A program made the position numbers and the translations under genes. Source: Deltaproteobacteria bacterium (lineage in GTDB: Bacteria; Desulfobacterota; BSN033; UBA1163). Taken from it: a DNA stretch of 44,649 nt. Under the pieces are notes generated by a model. That model searched no databases. It saw only the letters and a program-made list of their open reading frames with translations, and was not told where the DNA came from. This document shows, one piece after another, positions 1,903 through 14,295 of this stretch. The stretch lies in NCBI GenBank assembly GCA_018333535.1, contig JAGXTA010000170.1, positions 1-44,649 of the forward strand. Reading direction: 5' to 3'. Numbering within the stretch: the first letter of the stretch is position 1; every line of letters begins with the position of its first letter.

Positions 1903-3150
1903 ATGGGAAAGATCATGTTTAGAACGATTTTTATTCTCCTAACCAGTATCGGCTTTGTCTCTTCGGCCTTTGCCCAGGTCTGTTTGGAGTGCCACAAAAA
2001 GGTGACTCCCGGAATTGTGAGCGACTGGCAACTGAGCAAACACAGCAAAAATAAGGTCGACTGCGCTGTCTGCCACGGCAGCGATCACAAGTCATCCAAA
2101 GATGTTGCCAAAGCAAAGATTCCTACCCCTGACACCTGCGCCACCTGCCATGACAAACGGGTCAAGGAATTTAAAGCAGGAAAGCATGCGGCAGCCTGGG
2201 CCGCAATGAAGGCCATGCCAACCGCCCACTGGCAACCCATGTCTCTGATGGAAGGCATGAAAGGCTGCGGAGGCTGTCATAAGATCGGAATTAAAACCGA
2301 GGCGGAGATTAAGGAGTTAAAAAAGAGTGGAGCCGGTTTTGGCGTGGCCTCCTGCGATGCCTGCCACACCCGTCATACCTTCTCTGTGGTCGAAGCGAGG
2401 CAACCTCAAGCCTGCCAGACCTGCCATATGGGCTTTGACCATCCCCAATGGGAAATGTACTCCGGCTCAAAACACGGGGTTCGATATCTGTTAAAGCAGA
2501 ATAAGACCCTTCCGGCAACAGCTTCTGCACCCACCTGCCAGACCTGTCATATGCAGGGTGGCAATCACGAAGTCCGAACCGCATGGGGATTTCTCGCTGT
2601 TCGGCTTCCGATGCCTGAGGACAAGCAATGGACGGCTGACCGGGCCACCATCCTTCAGGGCCTTGGCGTCCTTGATCCCGATGGGAAACCAACAGCAAGG
2701 CTCGATGTCGTAAAGGCGGCTGATGTGGCTCGCCTCACCCAGGAGGCCTGGCAAAAGGAACGGGACAAGATGCTCAAAGCATGCAATAAATGCCATTCCG
2801 TCAATTTTGCAAAAGCCGAACTCGAAAAAGGCGATCAGGTCATCAAAGATGCAGACCGTTTGATGGCTGAAGCCATCCGTATCATTGCCGACTTATACAA
2901 GGACGGCATCCTTCCCAAACCAAAGAATTACGCCTATCCATTTCCTGATCTTCTCACCTTTCACGACGCCCCGACCGTGATCGAGCAGAAACTCTTTGTG
3001 ATGTTTCTCGAGCACCGGATGAGAACCTTCCAGGGAACCTTCCATGCCAACCCGGATTATGCCCTCTGGTATGGCTGGAGCAAGATGCAGCAGAGCCTGA
3101 CCGAAATCAGGGAGAAGGCCGCAGACCTGCGCGAAAAAACCAAAAAATAA
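1903..3150 (+). CDS. Octaheme c-type cytochrome, hydroxylamine oxidoreductase (HAO)-like
   Basis: The 415-residue protein has a signal peptide (residues 1-24, ending SSAFA) and eight CXXCH heme-binding motifs starting at C27, C54, C79, C122, C151, C171, C212 and C294. Eight hemes, the spacing, and a long heme-free helical C-terminal part (about 300-410) match the octaheme HAO family. The fourth motif (CGGCH) would hold the active-site heme. The family includes hydroxylamine and hydrazine oxidases and reductive members that handle nitrite or hydroxylamine. Which activity applies cannot be read from the sequence, because the presence of the heme-crosslinking tyrosine needs an alignment. It acts in the periplasm. 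A strong AAAGGAGGG ribosome site fixes the start. The gene stands alone between an IS1380 element and a terminator, and no membrane quinone partner lies beside it. The nearest is the cytochrome b/c pair at 9220-11116. Confidence 0.88.
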   Translation: MGKIMFRTIFILLTSIGFVSSAFAQVCLECHKKVTPGIVSDWQLSKHSKNKVDCAVCHGSDHKSSKDVAKAKIPTPDTCATCHDKRVKEFKAGKHAAAWAAMKAMPTAHWQPMSLMEGMKGCGGCHKIGIKTEAEIKELKKSGAGFGVASCDACHTRHTFSVVEARQPQACQTCHMGFDHPQWEMYSGSKHGVRYLLKQNKTLPATASAPTCQTCHMQGGNHEVRTAWGFLAVRLPMPEDKQWTADRATILQGLGVLDPDGKPTARLDVVKAADVARLTQEAWQKERDKMLKACNKCHSVNFAKAELEKGDQVIKDADRLMAEAIRIIADLYKDGILPKPKNYAYPFPDLLTFHDAPTVIEQKLFVMFLEHRMRTFQGTFHANPDYALWYGWSKMQQSLTEIREKAADLREKTKK

Positions 3151-3930: not shown

Positions 3931-6633
3931 TCACATCTTCTCCTTCAGTTCCATGGCCTCAAAGATGAGCTGGGTGACCTGGTCGAAGTTGAATGGCTTC
4001 GAAATAATGAGATCAATTCCGCTTTGGCCCATCTTCTCTCTGCTGAGTTCCATTCCCCATCCGGTGATCATGACAACAGGGATTTTCGGATTTAATTTCT
4101 TTAGCGCTTTTCCCACTTCCCAGCCAGAGATCTTTGGCATCCCAAGGTCGGTAAAGACCAGATCAAAGGGTTGCTTTTTAAACCACTCAATTCCTTCGTC
4201 TCCATCCGAAGCCGTCTCAACCTGATGGCCTTTGGCCATCAGCATCCGGGAGAGGACATCCCGAACAGCCTCCTCGTCGTCGATCACAAGGATTTTTGCC
4301 TGACGCATCATCCCCAGGGGTTTCTCCGCCTTCTTCTCCGCCTCTTTAACTTCCTCTCCGTAACCTATGGGCAGATGAAGAATGAAGTTGGTTCCTTTCC
4401 CGGGTTCGCTTTCGACAAGGATCTCGCCTCCATGTCGCTTGATGATTCCATAGGAGACGCTCATCCCTAATCCGGAGCTGGTCACACCTTTCGTGGTGAA
4501 GAACGGATCGAAGATCCTTTTACGCACTTCTTCTGTCATTCCGATGCCCGTATCCTCGATCCTCATCTCCACCCAGCCTTCGGAATGGGACTGGGTTGAA
4601 AGGGTGATCTGTCCTCCTTGCGGCATAGCATCGACGGCGTTGAAAAGAATGTTAGTCATCACCTCTCTTAACTCCGATGGGTTCCCCAGGACAGGAGGGA
4701 CGTCTCCGTTCTTTTTGACCAGCTCAATATGAATTCCTTTCTTCTGAGCCTGGTCCTTCCATCTCGGTTCTGTGATCGCCGACACCTCACGGATGAGATC
4801 ATTGAGGGAGAGAGGGATAAATTCCCTGTCCCTCCTTTTCCCTGTAAAATCCTGGATGCGACGGACCGTCTCGGCCCCATCCTTTGAAGCCTTCTCAATC
4901 GTTTTTAACCGTTCCCGAACCTCCTCCGGACTATAATGTTCATAGGAATGGAGCAGGAGTTGAATATTGCCAAGGATAGCGGCCAGGACATTATTGAAAT
5001 CGTGAGCCACGCCGCTTGCCATCTCTCCCATCGCCCTCAATTTCTCGGCCTGGATGATCTGGTCCTGAGCCTGTTTTAACTCATGGAGGGTCTGCTTCAA
5101 ATCGGAGAAGAGCTGGGCATTCTCAATGAAGATGCTCACCTGGCTGGCATAGGAGGAGAGGGCTTTCAAATCTTCCTCGTCAAACCCATGAACCTCCTTG
5201 CTCTCCATATCGAGAACGCCGATCACCTGGTCCCTCACCTTAAGTGGAAAGGCGGCTTCTGCCCTTCCCTCCGGAGATCCCGGGATATATCTGGGATCTT
5301 TTGATACATCGGGGACATAAAGAGGTTCGCCGGCATTGGCCACCCATCCGACGATCCCATCGACGCCGACCCGAAACCTCATATGTTTAACTTCTTCAAT
5401 GTCCCGGCCGATCACCTGCCTGATGTAGAGGTCATTCTTCCCTCGATCCAGCAATAGGATGCTGCATAGAGGATAACCCCATTGCGAGCTGAGAAGTTCA
5501 AGGGCATTCCCGAGCAATTCATCAAGATCAAGAGTCGAAGAGAGTTTTTTTCCGACCTCATAGAGGGTCGTCAATTGCCTGATCTTGGCTAACGAGTCCT
5601 CATAGAGTTGAGCATTTCCAATGGCGATGGCCGCCTGTTGAGCAAAACCGAAAAGGATGTCTATCTCACCTTGCTGAAAATGCTTTTTGGGATCGGAGAC
5701 GCCAATCACCATGACTCCAATGACCATATCTCTGACGATCAAAGGAACACCCACTACCTCTTTGAAATGGATGGAATCCAACTCTTCCATTCGATTGGAA
5801 TTGTGCTCATAATCCTTAAAAAGGACAGGACTCTTCTTTCTTAATACTTCTCCCACAATACCAATGGATGAAGGTGAAAATTCTCTCCCGATAAAGGATT
5901 CGGGCAACCCATGAACAATGACGTTCCCATAGGTCTGTTTCCGGTTGTCCCAGAGAGCAACGGATCCGGCATCGACTTTTAAAAGTTCAATGGCACTCTT
6001 CACTATTTTTTCAAGAATCACCTTTAGTTCGAGGCGGGAGGCGATTTCCTGACTGATGGAGTAAAGGGTCTTATGCTCTTCGAGTCGCCTGACATTCTCC
6101 GTGTAGAGGGAGGCCCTCTCCAGAGCGCTGCTGATGATCTGTCCGATGGAATTGAAGAGGTTCCTGGTAGAGGGCGTAAATGGATAAAATTCCTTTCGGG
6201 CAATATTGAGGGTCCCGTAGATCTTCTCCCTTGATTGAAGAGGTATGACCGCCAGTGATTTCAAGCCCTCTTCGATGGCAAAAGGGATGGCTTCCGGATA
6301 ACCAGGATAGTCATCAATGAAGAGGGGTTCCCCTGAAAGGGCGACCTTCCCCGTTGCTCCTTCTCCCAGCTTCAATCGTTTCATACCCTTTGCAAAGGCC
6401 ATTGAAAATCCCTTGTGAGCCACATAGACCAATTCACCGGTTGCCTCCTCCAAGAGATAGATGCCTACCGACTCGATCTCCGTCATCTCAACGATCTTAT
6501 CCAGGCTTTTGTTCAGGATTTCATCGAGATCAATCGACTCATTGACGGTCTGGCTGACGGCATTGAGGATCGAAAGCTCACGGTTGAGCCTGACGATCTC
6601 TTCTCCTTTTCCCTTCTTCTTCTCACTCTTCAT
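3931..6633 (-). CDS. Hybrid histidine kinase with three GAF domains and a C-terminal receiver
   Basis: This soluble sensor kinase of about 900 residues has three consecutive GAF domains (about 20-175, 185-350 and 360-515). A HisKA dimerisation helix follows with the phospho-accepting histidine in GVAHDFNN (about residue 544). The HATPase domain shows N box NAVDAMPQGG, G1 DTGIGM, F box FDPFFTTK and G2 GLGMSVSYG. A receiver from about residue 775 has acidic pair DDE, phospho-acceptor aspartate in VFTDLGMP (about 829), threonine in MITGWG and lysine in SKPFN. There is no transmembrane segment, so the signal is cytoplasmic, probably a small ligand or redox state read by GAF. I start at the ATG at 6633 (MKSEKKKGK). 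A further in-frame start at 6675 would translate the end of the adjacent MITE. No output regulator is adjacent; the nearest is the sigma-54 activator at 12805. Partnership with it is only a guess. Confidence 0.93.
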   Translation of the reverse strand: MKSEKKKGKGEEIVRLNRELSILNAVSQTVNESIDLDEILNKSLDKIVEMTEIESVGIYLLEEATGELVYVAHKGFSMAFAKGMKRLKLGEGATGKVALSGEPLFIDDYPGYPEAIPFAIEEGLKSLAVIPLQSREKIYGTLNIARKEFYPFTPSTRNLFNSIGQIISSALERASLYTENVRRLEEHKTLYSISQEIASRLELKVILEKIVKSAIELLKVDAGSVALWDNRKQTYGNVIVHGLPESFIGREFSPSSIGIVGEVLRKKSPVLFKDYEHNSNRMEELDSIHFKEVVGVPLIVRDMVIGVMVIGVSDPKKHFQQGEIDILFGFAQQAAIAIGNAQLYEDSLAKIRQLTTLYEVGKKLSSTLDLDELLGNALELLSSQWGYPLCSILLLDRGKNDLYIRQVIGRDIEEVKHMRFRVGVDGIVGWVANAGEPLYVPDVSKDPRYIPGSPEGRAEAAFPLKVRDQVIGVLDMESKEVHGFDEEDLKALSSYASQVSIFIENAQLFSDLKQTLHELKQAQDQIIQAEKLRAMGEMASGVAHDFNNVLAAILGNIQLLLHSYEHYSPEEVRERLKTIEKASKDGAETVRRIQDFTGKRRDREFIPLSLNDLIREVSAITEPRWKDQAQKKGIHIELVKKNGDVPPVLGNPSELREVMTNILFNAVDAMPQGGQITLSTQSHSEGWVEMRIEDTGIGMTEEVRKRIFDPFFTTKGVTSSGLGMSVSYGIIKRHGGEILVESEPGKGTNFILHLPIGYGEEVKEAEKKAEKPLGMMRQAKILVIDDEEAVRDVLSRMLMAKGHQVETASDGDEGIEWFKKQPFDLVFTDLGMPKISGWEVGKALKKLNPKIPVVMITGWGMELSREKMGQSGIDLIISKPFNFDQVTQLIFEAMELKEKM

Positions 6634-6660
6634 ATGAGAATGTCTTCCTTCCCTTTGAAT

Positions 6661-6753
6661 AGACCGTGTCGTCATCAGCCGTTCGCCCTGAGGTTCTCGA
6701 AGGGTGAACGGTTCGCTCAGGATCGAACCATGAATGGACTTACGACACAGTCT
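6661..6753. mobile_element. MITE-like element, GTGTCGT family, copy 1 (93 bp)
   Basis: The ends AGACCGTGTCGTCA (6661-6674) and ACTTACGACACAGTCT (6738-6753) are near-perfect inverted repeats. The interior can fold through TTCGCCCTGAGG, CTCGAAGGG and GGTTCGCTCAGG segments. The same termini bound 22010-22137. It carries no gene. The right end touches the stop codon of the DUF2284 gene, and the left end supplies the apparent N-terminal extension of the kinase frame. Confidence 0.75.
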
Positions 6754-8776: not shown

Positions 8777-8827
8777 TTCAGTGAAGTTAATATTAACACG
8801 TTCCCGTTGTCTCGACAACGAAAAAAA

Positions 8828-8888
8828 ACCCTATATATCCTCTCCATTTGGGTGGGGTTTGGATGGTGGGAGTAAGAGGATATATAGG
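8828..8888. repeat. Perfect 15-base inverted repeat
   Basis: CCCTATATATCCTCT at 8828-8842 and its exact complement at 8874-8888 enclose 31 bases rich in GGTGGGG. It lies in the 217-base gap between the metalloprotease gene and the small gene ending at 8992. A second, imperfect pairing (ATCGTCTT near 8928 with AAGACGAT near 8960) follows. The structure could terminate the electron-transfer operon arriving from the right, or be a small mobile repeat. No T-run follows, so terminator function is uncertain. Confidence 0.6.
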
Positions 8889-8991
8889 GCTATAAATTCA
8901 GTCTTATAGTCTGATGGTCGTATCGTCTTTTCGTCGGTGGCAAAAGGTCTTATTGACTACAAGACGATGTGACGATAAGACTACCGGACGA

Positions 8992-9159
8992 TCAGTGTTG
9001 CAGACAGGGATGATAAATGGTCATCCCTCCGATTTTATCAGATCTCCATTTTAACCAGTCGTAACTCCTTTTCAAAAAATTGCTCTCCTCCGTTCGAATT
9101 CTTTTCTTTTCTTTCTTCTTTGGATAAGGTCCATATCTTTCCCTAAGAGTGTCCTTCAT
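8992..9159 (-). CDS. Small basic protein of 55 residues, unrecognised
   Basis: An ATG at 9159 is preceded at normal distance by AAGGGGGGTGAAGG, one of the stronger ribosome sites in the region, and the frame stays open to TGA at 8992. The product starts MKDTLRERYGPYPKKKEKK, has a highly basic first third, an aromatic middle (SYDWLKWRSDK) and a CLQH tail. It has no signal peptide or membrane segment, and I recognise no family. It begins 60 bases after the cytochrome b stop on the same strand, so it is probably the last gene of the electron-transfer operon. It may be a cytoplasmic partner of the membrane complex. A chance open frame cannot be excluded. Confidence 0.5.
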   Translation of the reverse strand: MKDTLRERYGPYPKKKEKKRIRTEESNFLKRSYDWLKWRSDKIGGMTIYHPCLQH

Positions 9160-9219
9160 AAACCTTCACCCCCCTTTTTGTTTTACCCCGATAGAAAGTC
9201 GAAGAATTTCTAATGGGGT

Positions 9220-10050
9220 TTACATCCCTCTCCAATTTTTAATCGATTCATTAAGATGTCGAACCAAACCATAAAGACCTTTGACGGAGAATTTCTCCCT
9301 TCTCTCCTGATGAATGGGATAGGTTCTTCCGCCTCCTGGCCCTGACCCCTCGTTGAAATGGACCGGGGTTCTTTTCTCCTCTGCTTTAATTCTCTCCAAT
9401 TCCGAGCCATGCTCCAGTTCCATCTCATGTTCGGTCAGGTGCCCGTTGATCCAAGCCCAACTCATCGGATAGACATCGGGATTCCACACAACCGAATAAA
9501 AGTGCCAAACAATAATGGTGAGCGTAGCTAAGATGGCTTCATAAAAATGGATGGCCCGCGCCACCTCAAAGGTCCACATCGGAAAGAAGAGAAGCCATTC
9601 CTCCTTGAACCAGAGGATGAAACCTGTGACGGTCATGACGATCGTTCCCCAGATCAATCCTAAATATTCCAGCTTCTCCCTGAAATTAAACCGTCCCATC
9701 TTGATCACTTTGGCAGGCCGGTTGAGGAAGAGGTTATTCTTCAGAGTCTCCCAGAGGTCTTTAGCATCCTTCCACATGGGGATCATGTCGATCACAATCC
9801 TTCTTCCCCTTTCCGTAAAGGCAAGATAAAGGAGGTGATAACCTCCCAGGGTGATCGTCGCCACTCCGGAGAGTCGGTGGAGGAACCCTCTGAAGGTCAT
9901 TCCTAATGGAACATCCGTAATGGGAGAAGCCCAGAACGCCTCGGGGTACTTTAAAGCAAAACCGGTGATCACCAGAATCGTGAAGTTGATCGCCAGATTG
10001 AGGTGTTGAATCCTTTCATTCAAGGTCATTCGAAGATATTTTTTCGCCAT
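9220..10050 (-). CDS. Membrane cytochrome b (formate dehydrogenase gamma / b561-like)
   Basis: About 276 residues with four membrane helices (around LNLAINFTILVITGFAL, GVATITLGGYHLLYLAF, LGLIWGTIVMTVTGFILWF and ILATLTIIVWHFYSVVW). Histidines near helix ends (IQHLN, FLHRLSG, GGYHLLY, AIHFYE, VWHFY) fit the heme b ligands of the di-heme cytochrome b subunits of formate dehydrogenase and hydrogenase type. Such subunits exchange electrons with quinone and pass them to or from a periplasmic partner. The start at 10050 (MAKKYLRMT) is chosen because AAGGAG lies just upstream and it avoids overlap with the cytochrome c gene, which stops at 10064. The C-terminal 70 residues are a soluble, charged extension. 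Partner: the nine-heme cytochrome encoded immediately upstream. Confidence 0.88.
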   Translation of the reverse strand: MAKKYLRMTLNERIQHLNLAINFTILVITGFALKYPEAFWASPITDVPLGMTFRGFLHRLSGVATITLGGYHLLYLAFTERGRRIVIDMIPMWKDAKDLWETLKNNLFLNRPAKVIKMGRFNFREKLEYLGLIWGTIVMTVTGFILWFKEEWLLFFPMWTFEVARAIHFYEAILATLTIIVWHFYSVVWNPDVYPMSWAWINGHLTEHEMELEHGSELERIKAEEKRTPVHFNEGSGPGGGRTYPIHQERREKFSVKGLYGLVRHLNESIKNWRGM

Positions 10051-10063
10051 GATTCCCAGCTCC

Positions 10064-11116
10064 TTATTCTTTAGGCCTCCGATCAATGGTCTTTCTCAAC
10101 CAATCCATGAAGTTGAAGAAACTCAATCCTCCGATGACGGCCACAATCAGAATAATGTAGACGATTCTTACCCATCCCACCACCTTCTCGCCAAAGTCCA
10201 CTCCCCTGATGTCAGCCAGTGTATGAATCTTTCCTTTGGAAAAATTGACAGAAGCTTTGGGATGACAAACACCGCAGGTCTTCTGGAGGTTATCCTTATG
10301 GATCATTGATTTCGGGTCAGAAGCAGCGCGGATGTCATGGACGCCATGGCAACTGGCACAGTTGGCTGAAAAGGTATCTCCGCCACGGTAAGAGAGGCCG
10401 TGAAAACTGTCGTAATAGGACTTGACGGGCTTCGTTGTGAAACGGTACTCCTTCGTGATTTGCTCGGCTGCATGGCACTGGGGGCAGGTCGTCATCGCAA
10501 TTTTTCTCTCATGGACCGCTGACTCCGGATCAGACCTCGGTTTGATCGAATGGGTCCCATGGCAGGTCGTACAGGTTGGGTGATTAGGTCTTCCCCTAAA
10601 GAGTCCAACTCCGTGGACGCTTTCGGCAAATTGCTTGCTTTCTTGGGGATGGCAGGCTCCGCAGGTTTGAACAAGATTGGTTCGATACGTAGGCGATTTT
10701 GGATCGGCAAGACGGGTCACATAATGGTGTCCATGACATGCCTGGCAGGTGATCTCAGCTTTTAAGCGATGGACGCATGTTTTATATATTTTCTCCGACT
10801 CCTCATGGCATATCCCGCAATCCACCTTCCGGTCGGCCTCCTTGACCCCTTTTCTGGCGTGGGACTCATCAAGGATACGGGCGTGACAGTCCGTACAGGA
10901 AAGTTTTCCATGGACCGCTTTTTTGAATTCCCCCTCCGATACGAAGAGAGAGACTTTATTCCCACGGGCGTCTTTCTTCGATAATTTTTCGTCCTGATGG
11001 CAGCTTAAACACTTTGAGTTATCCCCCCAGGCCATTTCTCCCATCATTCCATAAAGAAATAAAAGAGAAAGAGCTCCCAGAGGAACCATCCAGGCTTTAT
11101 GCTTTCTCCACATCAT
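10064..11116 (-). CDS. Nine-heme membrane-anchored cytochrome c
   Basis: The 350-residue protein has an N-terminal signal or anchor (residues 11-30) and nine CXXCH motifs starting at C36, C74, C100, C124, C152, C182, C211, C253 and C281. A C-terminal membrane helix (about 316-335, IVYIILIVAVIGGLSF) is followed by a short basic tail. The heme domain therefore lies on the periplasmic side, tethered at the C-terminus. Many extra histidines (VHGKL, SVHG, SFHGLSY, KIHTL) fit bis-histidine heme ligation. It starts with ATG overlapping the receiver gene stop (ATGA) and is followed after 13 bases by cytochrome b. The pair would carry electrons between the quinone pool and a periplasmic acceptor or donor. 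The terminal reaction is not evident, and no catalytic subunit is encoded in the operon. Confidence 0.9.
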   Translation of the reverse strand: MMWRKHKAWMVPLGALSLLFLYGMMGEMAWGDNSKCLSCHQDEKLSKKDARGNKVSLFVSEGEFKKAVHGKLSCTDCHARILDESHARKGVKEADRKVDCGICHEESEKIYKTCVHRLKAEITCQACHGHHYVTRLADPKSPTYRTNLVQTCGACHPQESKQFAESVHGVGLFRGRPNHPTCTTCHGTHSIKPRSDPESAVHERKIAMTTCPQCHAAEQITKEYRFTTKPVKSYYDSFHGLSYRGGDTFSANCASCHGVHDIRAASDPKSMIHKDNLQKTCGVCHPKASVNFSKGKIHTLADIRGVDFGEKVVGWVRIVYIILIVAVIGGLSFFNFMDWLRKTIDRRPKE

Positions 11117-11541
11117 GCCGGAACCCTCCTTGGAATAAGAAAAGGTAGAAACCTCTCTTTTAAATTCTCCCTCTCAATCTTTTCAAAGGCGCACTCCACG
11201 GCTGACTTGACCTCTTCCAGATCGACCGGTTTCATCGCATGGTAGAAGATCCCCGCGCCCCTGAGGCGTTTGACCAGCCCGAGGGAAGCCTCCGAGGAAA
11301 TGACGATGACCTGGATCCTCTCATTGATCTTCTTGAAGAGAGGAACCAGGTCAAAAGCCTTCACCCCTTCCATCTCGTCATCCAGAAGGACGACATCGAT
11401 ATGTCCTTTTCTCACCTTGCGGATCATTTCGCTCACCAACGTTGCCGTCTCCACTTTATAGCCGAGGCCATGCAAAAAAGTGGAGAGCGATCTGACCCAT
11501 AAATCATCCTGATAGGCTATGAGAATGATCTTTGCTTTCAT
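11113..11541 (-). CDS. Stand-alone response-regulator receiver protein
   Basis: The 142-residue protein is a single CheY-like receiver: acidic patch in IAYQDDLW, phospho-acceptor aspartate in VVLLDDEMEG (about 54-55), serine in VISSEA and lysine in AMKPVD. A short basic C-terminal tail (RFLPFLIPRRVPA) follows, with no DNA-binding or enzymatic output domain. It is translationally coupled to the nine-heme cytochrome gene by an ATGA overlap, unusual for a pure signalling protein. This suggests it regulates assembly or activity of the redox complex, or relays signal in the phosphorelay that controls the operon. The kinase is unknown; the hybrid kinase at 3931 is one candidate. Confidence 0.85.
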   Translation of the reverse strand: MKAKIILIAYQDDLWVRSLSTFLHGLGYKVETATLVSEMIRKVRKGHIDVVLLDDEMEGVKAFDLVPLFKKINERIQVIVISSEASLGLVKRLRGAGIFYHAMKPVDLEEVKSAVECAFEKIERENLKERFLPFLIPRRVPA

Positions 11542-11603
11542 CCCTGTCTCTTCAACTCCTGCTATTCTACCCTAACCCCTGTGGAAAAGGAATCTTTTTT
11601 TTA

Positions 11604-11858
11604 TTAAGTCGCCCGGATGGGCATCTCATTTCTCCTGGAAGAGGAGAAACTTGTTCCGATAAAAGAGGATAAGAGGATACCTGCCGGGATCAACTGGGCT
11701 AAAACCACAATGATCCCAAAGGTAAGGAAGAACCATATCCCGATCAGGCCAATTCCTCTAATCCCTCCTGCATAGGCAATCCCCAGAGAGAAGAGAGCAA
11801 TGGCTGTAATCAGGACGAAAACCATGATGATTAAAATCCGTTTCAACTTTCTATCCAT
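11604..11858 (-). CDS. Small two-helix membrane protein, paralogue of the preceding gene product
   Basis: About 84 residues with two hydrophobic helices (IIMVFVLITAIALFSLGIA and a second from WFFLTFGIIVV to ILLSSFIG) and a short basic end. The second helix contains VVLAQLIPAGILLSSFIGT, which aligns closely with the same part of the 11936 product, so the two genes are tandem duplicates. I do not recognise a named family. The start at 11858 (MDRKLKR) has GGAG at normal spacing; an ATG at 11870 is the alternative. Its position before the receiver and cytochrome genes, all on one strand, suggests a membrane accessory of the redox complex. Confidence 0.7.
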   Translation of the reverse strand: MDRKLKRILIIMVFVLITAIALFSLGIAYAGGIRGIGLIGIWFFLTFGIIVVLAQLIPAGILLSSFIGTSFSSSRRNEMPIRAT

Positions 11859-11935
11859 CCTATGCTCCATTCCTGTTTCTTGATTTTTTAATTCTCAACC
11901 CTCAACTCTTCATTCTTAACTCATAACTCCCATAT

Positions 11936-12232
11936 CTACTTCTCCGCGGTCACGGGCTCATATCCTGGAAGGCTCATCTTCTCTTCGGCTGTTGCCTTTT
12001 CCTGAGACTTCTTTTTCATAATGAGGCCTGTTGCCGTACCGATGAAAGTGAAGAAGAGAATCGCCGCTGGTATTAATTGAAGCAGAACAATAATCGCTCC
12101 GATGATGATGAAAACCCAAAGAGCGGCTCCTGCATCCTTCAAACTCACTGACCTTGCAAATGCAGGCGTTGAAATGAGGCTGATGAGCGCAATCATCAAG
12201 CCAATTCTGAAAAACTTATATCCTTTTTCCAT
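11936..12232 (-). CDS. Small membrane protein with signal peptide-like N-terminus, first gene of the sigma-54 operon
   Basis: A 98-residue protein: first hydrophobic segment IGLMIALISLISTPAFARS looks like a signal peptide with an AFA cleavage site. The second helix (about 37-70) carries IIVLLQLIPAAILFFTFIGT, followed by a charged cytoplasmic tail rich in lysine and glutamate. It shares the QLIPAxIL...FIGT motif with the next gene product. AAAGGGGG lies upstream at normal distance. A sigma-54 promoter (12268-12284) sits 36 bases before the start with no other gene between, so this is the first gene of the operon that continues to the cytochromes. Function unknown. Confidence 0.75.
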   Translation of the reverse strand: MEKGYKFFRIGLMIALISLISTPAFARSVSLKDAGAALWVFIIIGAIIVLLQLIPAAILFFTFIGTATGLIMKKKSQEKATAEEKMSLPGYEPVTAEK

Positions 12233-12267
12233 CTTTTATTCCCCCTTTCAACTTGTCTCACAAGTAT

Positions 12268-12284
12268 TGCATTTCGTGTGCCAA
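12268..12284 (-). promoter_or_regulatory. Sigma-54 promoter of the electron-transfer operon
   Basis: On the minus strand the sequence reads TTGGCACACGAAATGCA, matching the sigma-54 consensus TGGCAC-N5-TTGC with the invariant GG (-24) and GC (-12) exactly ten bases apart. One base of the -12 box differs. Transcription would begin about 25 bases before the ATG at 12232. The AT-rich DNA upstream (12290-12480) is suitable for enhancer sites, and a sigma-54 activator is encoded at 12805-14208. Confidence 0.75.
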
Positions 12285-12478
12285 CGTTAAACCTTAAATC
12301 ACGATATGCTTAACTATATGATTTAACTTATTTTATTAAAATGTTAAAACTAAAGCGGCAAGCATTATGTATATTTATAATATACTTTTTGTGGAGTATA
12401 ATTTGAGCAATAATTCACTAATTGGCAGAATTAATTGATTTTTAACAAAATATAAAATAAATATACAATTATAATCTT

Positions 12479-12685
12479 TTAAAATCCTAATGTGCGGGCA
12501 AGAATGGAGAAGGCAATAATGGGGATCAACCAGCAGAAAAATGTTATTATAAAACAGAGACTTACATCATCTGTTTCGATCTTCTTAATCTCTCCGTATT
12601 TGACAATTAAAATCAGGCCGAGGCAAGCAATCCCAACCACTACGATAGACCATCCCAGAATCAACCATTTAAAGAAATCGGACAC
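12479..12685 (-). CDS. Small two-helix membrane protein, hypothetical
   Basis: A 68-residue protein that is almost entirely membrane: helix 1 LGWSIVVVGIACLGLILIV, a short charged loop KYGEIKKIETDD, helix 2 CFIITFFCWLIPIIAFSILA. It shares only a loose LIPII resemblance with the two proteins at 11604-12232. The start is GTG with a poor ribosome site (GAGCGAAG). It lies between the sigma-54 promoter region and the activator gene, on the same strand. No family recognised; a short spurious frame is possible, although the strong helix pattern argues for a real gene. Confidence 0.5.
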   Translation of the reverse strand: MSDFFKWLILGWSIVVVGIACLGLILIVKYGEIKKIETDDVSLCFIITFFCWLIPIIAFSILARTLGF

Positions 12686-12804: not shown

Positions 12805-14208
12805 TCATTCTTCTCTTGCTCGAAGACCATACTTCCTCATCAGGGCCTGAAAATTCGGCCGGAGCATTCCCACCTCTTCTGCTGCCTTTGTCACATTCCA
12901 TTGACTCCGTTCCAGGGCTTTGATGACAAATGCCTTTTCTACATCCTCTACGGCTTTCTCCCTCAGTTGCTTTTTGATCTCCTTCAACTCATCACTGGTC
13001 GCCGGAATTGTATTCTCCATCTCCTCACTTACCCCCTGGCCGGGCAGGATCAAATGCTCAACCCGCACCATTTCCTCATCCATCATTACGACCGTCCGCT
13101 CGATAACATTCTCTAGCTCTCTCACATTCCCCGGCCAGGGATACTTCATTAATTTCTCCATCGCCTCAGGGGTAAACCCTTTGATCGCCTTTCCCATCTC
13201 TTCGGAATACTTTTTAAGAAAATGGACAGACAGGGCGGGGATATCCTCATGGCGTTCCCTCAGAGGAGGAAGATAAATCGGAACAATGTTCAGGCGATAA
13301 TAAAGATCCTCCCGAAATGTCTCCTCTTTGATCATCTTCTCCAGGTCCTTATTGGTTGCGGCAATGAGCCGGATATCAACCTTTTTGGCCTTTGTCCCTC
13401 CCACAGGCGTAAACTCCCTCTCCTGCAATACCCTCAGGAGCTTGGCCTGAATGGCCGGGCTGATGTTGCCAATCTCATCGAGAAAGACCGTTCCGCCGTC
13501 CGCCACCTCAAACAGTCCCGGCTTGGTCGTCACCGCGCCGGTGAAAGATCCTCTGACATGACCGAACAGTTCGCTCTCCAGCAGATTCTCTGAAAGGACC
13601 GCGCAGTCAACGGTCACAAATTGCTTGTCCCTTCTCGCGCTATTAAAATGGATGGCCCGGGCGATCAGCTCCTTTCCGGTGCCGCTCTGTCCATTGATCA
13701 ACACGGTGCTATCCGTCGGAGCCACTTTTGCAATGATCCGGTAGATCTCCTGCATCTTCTTGCTCTTGCCTACGACGTTATGAAATCCGTATTTCTCACG
13801 AAGTTCTTGTCTTAGATAAACGTTTTCCAGAAGAAGGTTCTTCTGTTCAATCGCCTTTTTTACAACGATGGAGACCTCATCCGGAGTAAAAGGCTTGGGA
13901 ATATAGTCGAAGGCCCCCAATTTCATGGCCTCGACCGCTGTCTCCACGGTGGAAAAACCAGTGATCATGATCACAATCGTATCCGGATATTCCTTCCGCA
14001 ATATCCGGAGGACTTCCATTCCATCGATCCCAGGCATTTTCAGGTCGGTGATGACGATATCAAAAGGATTCTCCTTCATCTTCCCGAGGGCCTCCGTCCC
14101 GCCCGAAGCGGTCTCCACTTCTAACCCTTCCTCTTCGAGAATTCGCTGACAACTTTCACAGACAATCAGTTCGTCATCGACCACCAAGATCCTCGGACTG
14201 GATGCCAT
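12805..14208 (-). CDS. Sigma-54-dependent response regulator, NtrC/AtoC family
   Basis: Three domains are clear. A receiver (about 1-120) has VVDDE, phospho-acceptor aspartate in VITDLKMPG and lysine in PKPFTPDE. A sigma-54 AAA+ domain (about 140-370) has Walker A GQSGTGKE, a sigma-contact loop reading GSFTGA instead of the usual GAFTGA, Walker B FLDEIG and the arginine-finger region. A Fis-type helix-turn-helix ends the protein (NVTKAAEEVGMLRPNFQALMRKYGL). It activates sigma-54 promoters when phosphorylated. The start at 14208 is chosen for its GAGGAGGAG ribosome site; an ATG 21 bases upstream is less likely. No kinase gene adjoins. The sigma-54 promoter at 12268 is the closest likely target. 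Confidence 0.94.
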   Translation of the reverse strand: MASSPRILVVDDELIVCESCQRILEEEGLEVETASGGTEALGKMKENPFDIVITDLKMPGIDGMEVLRILRKEYPDTIVIMITGFSTVETAVEAMKLGAFDYIPKPFTPDEVSIVVKKAIEQKNLLLENVYLRQELREKYGFHNVVGKSKKMQEIYRIIAKVAPTDSTVLINGQSGTGKELIARAIHFNSARRDKQFVTVDCAVLSENLLESELFGHVRGSFTGAVTTKPGLFEVADGGTVFLDEIGNISPAIQAKLLRVLQEREFTPVGGTKAKKVDIRLIAATNKDLEKMIKEETFREDLYYRLNIVPIYLPPLRERHEDIPALSVHFLKKYSEEMGKAIKGFTPEAMEKLMKYPWPGNVRELENVIERTVVMMDEEMVRVEHLILPGQGVSEEMENTIPATSDELKEIKKQLREKAVEDVEKAFVIKALERSQWNVTKAAEEVGMLRPNFQALMRKYGLRAREE

Positions 14209-14295
14209 GCACTCCTCCTCTTGAACCATCTGTCAGAATCCTACCATAAATTAAAGAATCCTTTCAATCTCCACCCGATGGCAGACAGGGATTTT

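Follow-up and report, generated by a model that had tools for sequence, protein, structure and literature searches.

Closest described systems and the locus

The way in which bacteria respire close to the energy limit is set by quinone oxidoreductases, of which CbcL and CbcBA are examples. CbcL combines a nine-heme region with a diheme cytochrome b (PMC9129911), and CbcBA is induced when better electron acceptors are absent (PMC12307469). The Geobacter sulfurreducens genes for the latter, cbcA (GSU0594) and cbcB (GSU0593), stand beside GSU0596, annotated as a response receiver, and the hypothetical GSU0597 (PMC10599522, PMC7726332). The system considered here is an operon of a Deltaproteobacteria bacterium (GenBank assembly GCA_018333535.1), found in a stretch of 44,649 nucleotides of contig JAGXTA010000170.1 that is referred to below as the window. 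It encodes a nine-heme cytochrome c and a cytochrome b, probably a split relative of CbcL, behind a cassette of two small membrane proteins, miniA and miniB, and a lone receiver. The cassette recurs across the phylum, in most cases under a common sigma-54 promoter design.

Six co-directional open reading frames run from 12232 down to 8992 on the minus strand, where the original prediction had placed them, and the domain matches given below agree with the identities that it assigned:

11936..12232, minus strand: miniA, 98 residues, with a signal peptide, one transmembrane helix bearing a QLIPA motif and a basic cytoplasmic tail
11604..11870, minus strand: miniB, 88 residues, a paralog of miniA
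11113..11541, minus strand: lone atypical receiver (RECx), with a conserved GIFYHAMKP signature and a C-terminal tail
10064..11116, minus strand: nonaheme c-type cytochrome, with a signal peptide and a C-terminal transmembrane anchor
9220..10050, minus strand: FdnI-like diheme cytochrome b, with its ATG at 10050 and all four heme-ligand histidines present
8992..9159, minus strand: basic 55-residue protein, kept in most relatives at 48-67% identity

The operon is real and conserved. The conservation of gene order, which had been proposed as a check, is evident at many loci of the same family, where an activator gene and a 68-residue membrane protein are followed by a sigma-54 site, miniA, miniB, the receiver, cytochrome c, cytochrome b, the 55-residue protein, an M48/TPR protease, a DUF2284 protein and a GAF kinase. 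Natural variants include one locus without miniB (L022), one without miniA (L045) and two, L023 in genome G005 and L255 in genome G010, in which the same promoter and sigma-54 site lead directly into the cytochrome genes, with neither minis nor receiver. The b subunit has a match in 17 of 17 family genomes and an orthologous gene in 16; the match in the remaining genome (G014, 86% complete) is a paralog of 30% identity, with no ortholog found.

The redox core

The c-type cytochrome contains nine CXXCH motifs, while the b subunit matches PF01292 (9.5e-15) and aligns with FdnI (1kqf_C) at all four heme-ligand histidines. Each protein is homologous to one half of a 648-residue fusion of nine hemes and a b domain encoded in the same genome (L051; G000:C2:6295-8238). 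With the nine-heme half the c protein shares 30% identity over its length (E 1e-41); with the membrane half the b protein shares 26% (E 4e-28). Orthologs of this fusion in the nine Desulfuromonadia-type genomes tested are single-copy, bear nine hemes and are 52-55% identical, and the fusion thus agrees with CbcL as described in the literature (PMC9129911). In the tree of b subunits, proteins of the window's type form a clade of their own (97/97), with the CbcL b domains and the CbcB-like proteins each forming another. This separate clade, taken together with the homology by halves, argues that the c and b proteins are probably a split, CbcL-like quinone:cytochrome c oxidoreductase lying outside both CbcL and CbcBA, with a quinone as the presumed substrate.

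Two assignments to described types were rejected. Membership of CbcL is excluded by the two separate genes, the separate b clade and the true CbcL-type ortholog elsewhere in the genome, and membership of CbcBA by a heme count that is not that of a heptaheme protein and by the position of the b subunit outside the CbcB clade. The heptaheme CbcA-like proteins, which match the solved structure 28pb_A (E 6e-143), are homologous to the N-terminal heme region of the c protein and to that region only (hhalign 99%), and the b subunit is not detectably close to CbcB (hhalign probability 17%). The heme count itself varies among counterparts of the c protein, with nine in the window and eleven in g4 and G010. 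A further fusion of related parts was observed in the same genome at L050 (G000:C1 ~11922), a 721-residue protein of inverted order with an FdnI-like b domain, then seven hemes, then more transmembrane helices, adjoining a six-heme cytochrome gene.

The b-c pair could also serve another route, for example the reduction of menaquinone by electrons that are supplied externally or come from the oxidation of formate or hydrogen in the periplasm, as would suit a syntrophic life style. Relatives are labelled Syntrophaceae, a reverse reaction of CbcBA has been proposed in Seep-SRB2 (PMC10553843), and the b subunit is similar to formate dehydrogenase gamma as well. The operon has no dehydrogenase gene, however, and direction is not readable from sequence; such a route is a candidate that we judge somewhat unlikely.

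A shared sigma-54 promoter

The region upstream of miniA contains a promoter and three further elements, in order of increasing distance from the gene:

12269..12283, minus strand: sigma-54 promoter TGGCACACGAAATGC (TGGCAC-N5-ATGC), conserved in position in relatives and enriched genome-wide
12311..12323, minus strand: element AATCATATAGTTA resembling a site for integration host factor (IHF), with one mismatch to WATCARNNNNTTR, at -40
12368..12386, minus strand: proximal enhancer dyad AGTATATTATAAATATACA, with one mismatch to TGTAT-N9-ATACA, a probable NtrC/BccR-type activator site
12449..12467, minus strand: distal enhancer dyad TGTATATTTATTTTATATT, with two mismatches to TGTAT-N9-ATACA, at about -184 of the sigma-54 site

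Taken by itself, the sigma-54 motif on which the original prediction relied is within chance in the window (one match found against 1.38 expected, one mismatch allowed). It is nevertheless convincing because its position is conserved, about 48-64 nucleotides 5' of the first ATG in most relatives, and because the genome contains 64 such sites, compared with 4 matches to the reversed pattern used as a control. The two dyads and the IHF-like element had gone unmentioned in the original prediction, as had the terminator and the 68-residue membrane-protein gene described below. Strict IHF-like matches lie at about -39 to -42 in nine relatives and at -29/-30 in two, and IHF is known to play a part between an enhancer and a sigma-54 promoter (PMC7962754).

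The dyad TGTAT-N9-ATACA is found about 101-128 bp 5' of the sigma-54 sites, frequently accompanied by another copy at a greater distance. When one mismatch at most is allowed, a proximal dyad is present at 16 of 25 cassettes in the window's family (null 0.4%) and at 28 of 38 outside it (null 0.3%). An N11 spacing gave weak enrichment; the N9 spacing fits. Only one of 61 other sigma-54-like sites examined in the genome carries the dyad, and it belongs to the fourth mini cassette. When the family was searched for the right half-site plus promoter and the left half-site was then required, nothing remained except mini cassettes and the cytochrome operon that lacks minis, with one site of that search, L172, lying at a contig edge where its gene is not readable. 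Most cassettes have this common promoter design, and they constitute one predicted regulon. The main text of the genome-wide RpoN paper on G. sulfurreducens makes no mention of these loci.

The mini-receiver cassette

MiniA and miniB are 44% identical over 43 residues (E 2e-9), and neither matched a Pfam or NCBIfam family. Mini genes stand at four places in the genome, and the three copies outside the operon lack cytochromes: on contigs C171 and C130 a sigma-54 site precedes miniA, miniB and a receiver, and on C5 it precedes miniA alone. A profile search of the phylum recovered minis in 39 of 395 genomes and 12 families, at up to ten copies per genome, a frequent order outside the window's family being mini-receiver-mini. 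Certain cassettes lie 5' of a heptaheme c and a PF01292 b of the CbcBA type (L038, L040, L042, L143 and L148), and others 5' of genes for a pentaheme c, for an iron-sulfur protein whose start is twin-arginine-like and for a multi-transmembrane protein (L125, L129, L130, L132 and L151). This last protein has no Pfam match and looks NrfD-like, and the set to which it belongs may be another kind of quinone oxidoreductase. The minis accordingly precede three kinds of quinone oxidoreductase or stand alone, and miniA-miniB-receiver is a separate, reusable cassette, copied around genomes of the phylum under one shared switch. The original prediction was mistaken in holding that no described complex has this gene set, since Geobacter-like loci of the CbcBA type have the order mini-receiver-mini-c-b beside the likely ortholog of the activator.

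The receiver matches Pfam Response_reg (2.9e-14). In the window it presents the phospho-Asp, Ser and Lys, and its acidic pair reads Y-Q-D-D against D-D. This pair is incomplete in nearly all 43 cassette receivers; the phospho-aspartate (D57) is kept in 20 of them, nearly all from the window's family, and in 22 its place is taken by Gly or Ser. With the acidic pocket degenerate and the phospho-site so often lost, a classical phospho-switch is not to be assumed. The strongest signature of the group is instead the alpha4-beta5 stretch GIFYHA-KP, and a C-terminal tail ending in PA is conserved in the window's family. Sampled loci, which are not independent of one another, give a mini alongside the receiver in 44 of 45 cases, no receiver in 27 of 69 mini groups, and a multiheme gene directly behind 25 of 72 cassettes.

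These counts bear on what the cassette may do. The original prediction had the receiver act on the complex itself, a model in which minis and receiver are subunits of the redox complex and phosphorylation of the receiver switches its activity. The fixed gene order, the occurrence of cassettes 5' of other quinone complexes and the phospho-aspartate kept in nearly all receivers of the window's family would all suit such a model, as would the ATGA overlap of the receiver and nine-heme cytochrome genes, which was correctly predicted and recurs in the relatives read. The model is weakened by the excess of cassettes without cytochromes over those with them, by the cytochrome operons of L023 and L255, which have the promoter and no cassette, and by the incomplete acidic pair and frequent loss of D57; we regard it as unlikely.

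Alternatively, the receiver could be a feedback element that competes for the kinase of the activator or binds the activator, with the regulon tuned by the number of expressed cassettes and the minis anchoring the receiver at the membrane. All copies share the promoter of the very activator to be tuned, Spo0F and receivers of the NtrC family are the closest counterparts of the receiver with a solved structure, and conservation peaks at the alpha4-beta5 face. The mini groups without a receiver and the loss of the phospho-site in half of the receiver family are harder to accommodate, and this explanation, too, strikes us as doubtful. Less likely still, the minis may be membrane-organizing proteins that, for instance, pack respiratory complexes or shape internal membranes in low-energy growth. 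Their very many copies, their small size and their single transmembrane helix with a conserved motif would be in keeping with such a role, and low potential raises the frequency of intracytoplasmic membranes in Geobacter, whose mechanism of formation is not known (PMC10082016); no direct link emerged in the data examined, in which no mini gene of Geobacter was assigned from its sequence.

The adjoining probable activator

One gene next to the operon is central to its predicted control:

12805..14229, minus strand: NtrC-family sigma-54 activator, with a receiver, an AAA+ sigma-54 interaction domain and a Fis helix-turn-helix

Its apparent ortholog was the top match in 15 genomes, usually clear of the next match by about 100 bits or more. 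The ortholog adjoins mini cassettes in eight genomes outside the family (G369, G298, G046, G310, G217, G194, G114 and G257), and in G298, G369 and G046 it adjoins loci of the CbcBA type. The sigma-54 activator of CbcBA in G. sulfurreducens is BccR; the protein of the window has the domain composition of a BccR-type activator and may be its ortholog. The activator orthologs retain the recognition helix GMLRPNFQALLKK, which most of the next-best paralogs lack. Because an apparent one-to-one ortholog stands beside cassettes in distant families, the NtrC-type protein is likely the activator of the operon and its cassettes, and would bind at the dyad. The notion of a regulated, quinone-linked redox operon with its probable sigma-54 activator next door has thus been strengthened. 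In genome G334 (L258 4917-5618, minus strand), a CbcB-like gene immediately follows a sigma-54 site whose dyad is perfect, beside an activator ortholog, with no mini genes.

Other features of the window

Three further features frame the operon:

12479..12685, minus strand: 68-residue membrane protein with two transmembrane helices and a GTG start, between the activator gene and the promoter
8822..8891, minus strand: intrinsic terminator at the operon end, a 17-pair hairpin followed by a U tract (-25.9 kcal/mol, z -7.27)
3931..6675, minus strand: GAF-GAF-GAF histidine kinase with a receiver, downstream, at a conserved position in relatives

The 68-residue protein matches no known family and is 85-96% identical across the window's family, a conservation greater than or about equal to that of the adjoining activator gene. 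The GAF kinase is a candidate kinase for the NtrC-type activator. At five loci of other families (L038, L042, L143, L148 and L151), the activator gene instead has as its neighbor a membrane-bound HAMP histidine kinase bearing a single CXXCH motif, whereas the GAF kinase of the window is soluble. A search of the window against Rfam returned zero matches. On the plus strand at 358-1836, two adjoining open reading frames resemble a single transposase split in two and lie directly 5' of a multiheme cytochrome gene (1903-3150).

Proposed function

Considered as a whole, the locus is best explained as a two-subunit bc-type oxidoreductase under sigma-54 and NtrC-type control, with the mini/receiver cassette as an accessory of the same regulon, an account that we consider probable. 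The operon, its promoter architecture, the homologies, the copies of the cassette and the degenerate pocket of the receiver are read directly from sequence; that a quinone is the substrate, which protein is the activator, what the signal is and where the receiver docks are inferred. The FdnI-like diheme b would carry the membrane-anchored nonaheme c in the inner membrane, and electrons would pass between menaquinone and periplasmic cytochromes as in a split CbcL, by default through menaquinol oxidation at low redox potential, with the direction not fixed. The NtrC-type activator, acting at the two upstream dyads, would drive sigma-54 transcription, probably with bending by IHF, and by analogy with CbcBA the inducing signal may be low redox potential or a scarcity of better acceptors. 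The minis and receiver would not be core subunits; the membrane minis, with the receiver probably docked on their cytoplasmic tails as their co-occurrence suggests, would accompany whichever low-potential quinone oxidoreductase is induced. Two observations tell against this account. The conserved ATGA overlap points to a receiver that is produced together with the complex and is not merely accessory to it, and the nearness of the b subunit to CbcL rather than CbcB is moderately supported (88/69), so that the redox partner could differ.

More tentatively, the mini-receiver cassette may be an undescribed respiratory accessory system, composed of twin single-transmembrane proteins and a largely phosphorylation-independent receiver. 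On this possible extension, for which we claim less than even confidence, a single conserved sigma-54 regulon would express many copies each time a low-potential quinone oxidoreductase is induced, and at least three unrelated complexes (split CbcL, CbcBA and NrfD-type) would each have recruited the cassette independently. The conserved promoter code predicts the members of the regulon, with which a family of tiny membrane proteins and atypical receivers travels, an activator ortholog has been identified, and the genetic tractability of G. sulfurreducens makes the role of the cassette directly testable. In that organism, the hypothetical genes GSU0597, GSU3409 and GSU3410 move jointly in two transcriptomes (PMC10599522, PMC11934962), and GSU3410 and GSU3489 are up with cbcBA under cobalt (PMC7726332). 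If these genes encode minis, published data already show the regulon.

Comparison with known systems

The closest counterpart is CbcL of G. sulfurreducens, a protein needed for reducing extracellular acceptors of low potential, which has the same nine c-hemes and FdnI-like diheme b module, with both halves homologous; unlike CbcL, the system of the window is encoded by two genes, has its own b clade and occurs in a genome that possesses a CbcL ortholog besides. Loci of the CbcBA type (Cbc5; GSU0594/GSU0593) share the c-then-b order, the upstream mini and atypical receiver genes, the same dyad and an adjoining activator that is a likely ortholog, whereas CbcA has seven hemes and an EF-hand-like insertion against the nine or eleven hemes of the window's type. 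FdnI, the cytochrome b556 of formate dehydrogenase-N, shows the same four-helix diheme b fold and four ligand histidines, but the operon contains no catalytic or iron-sulfur subunits of a formate dehydrogenase. The receiver likewise resembles stand-alone receivers such as Spo0F in having a single receiver domain without an output domain, and differs from them in its incomplete acidic pair, in the loss of the phospho-site in half of its family, in its conserved C-terminal tail and in its mini partners. Judged from these comparisons, what is known in this locus appears to be the bc-type quinone oxidoreductase, and what is new the undescribed accessory cassette joined to it, together with its predicted regulon.

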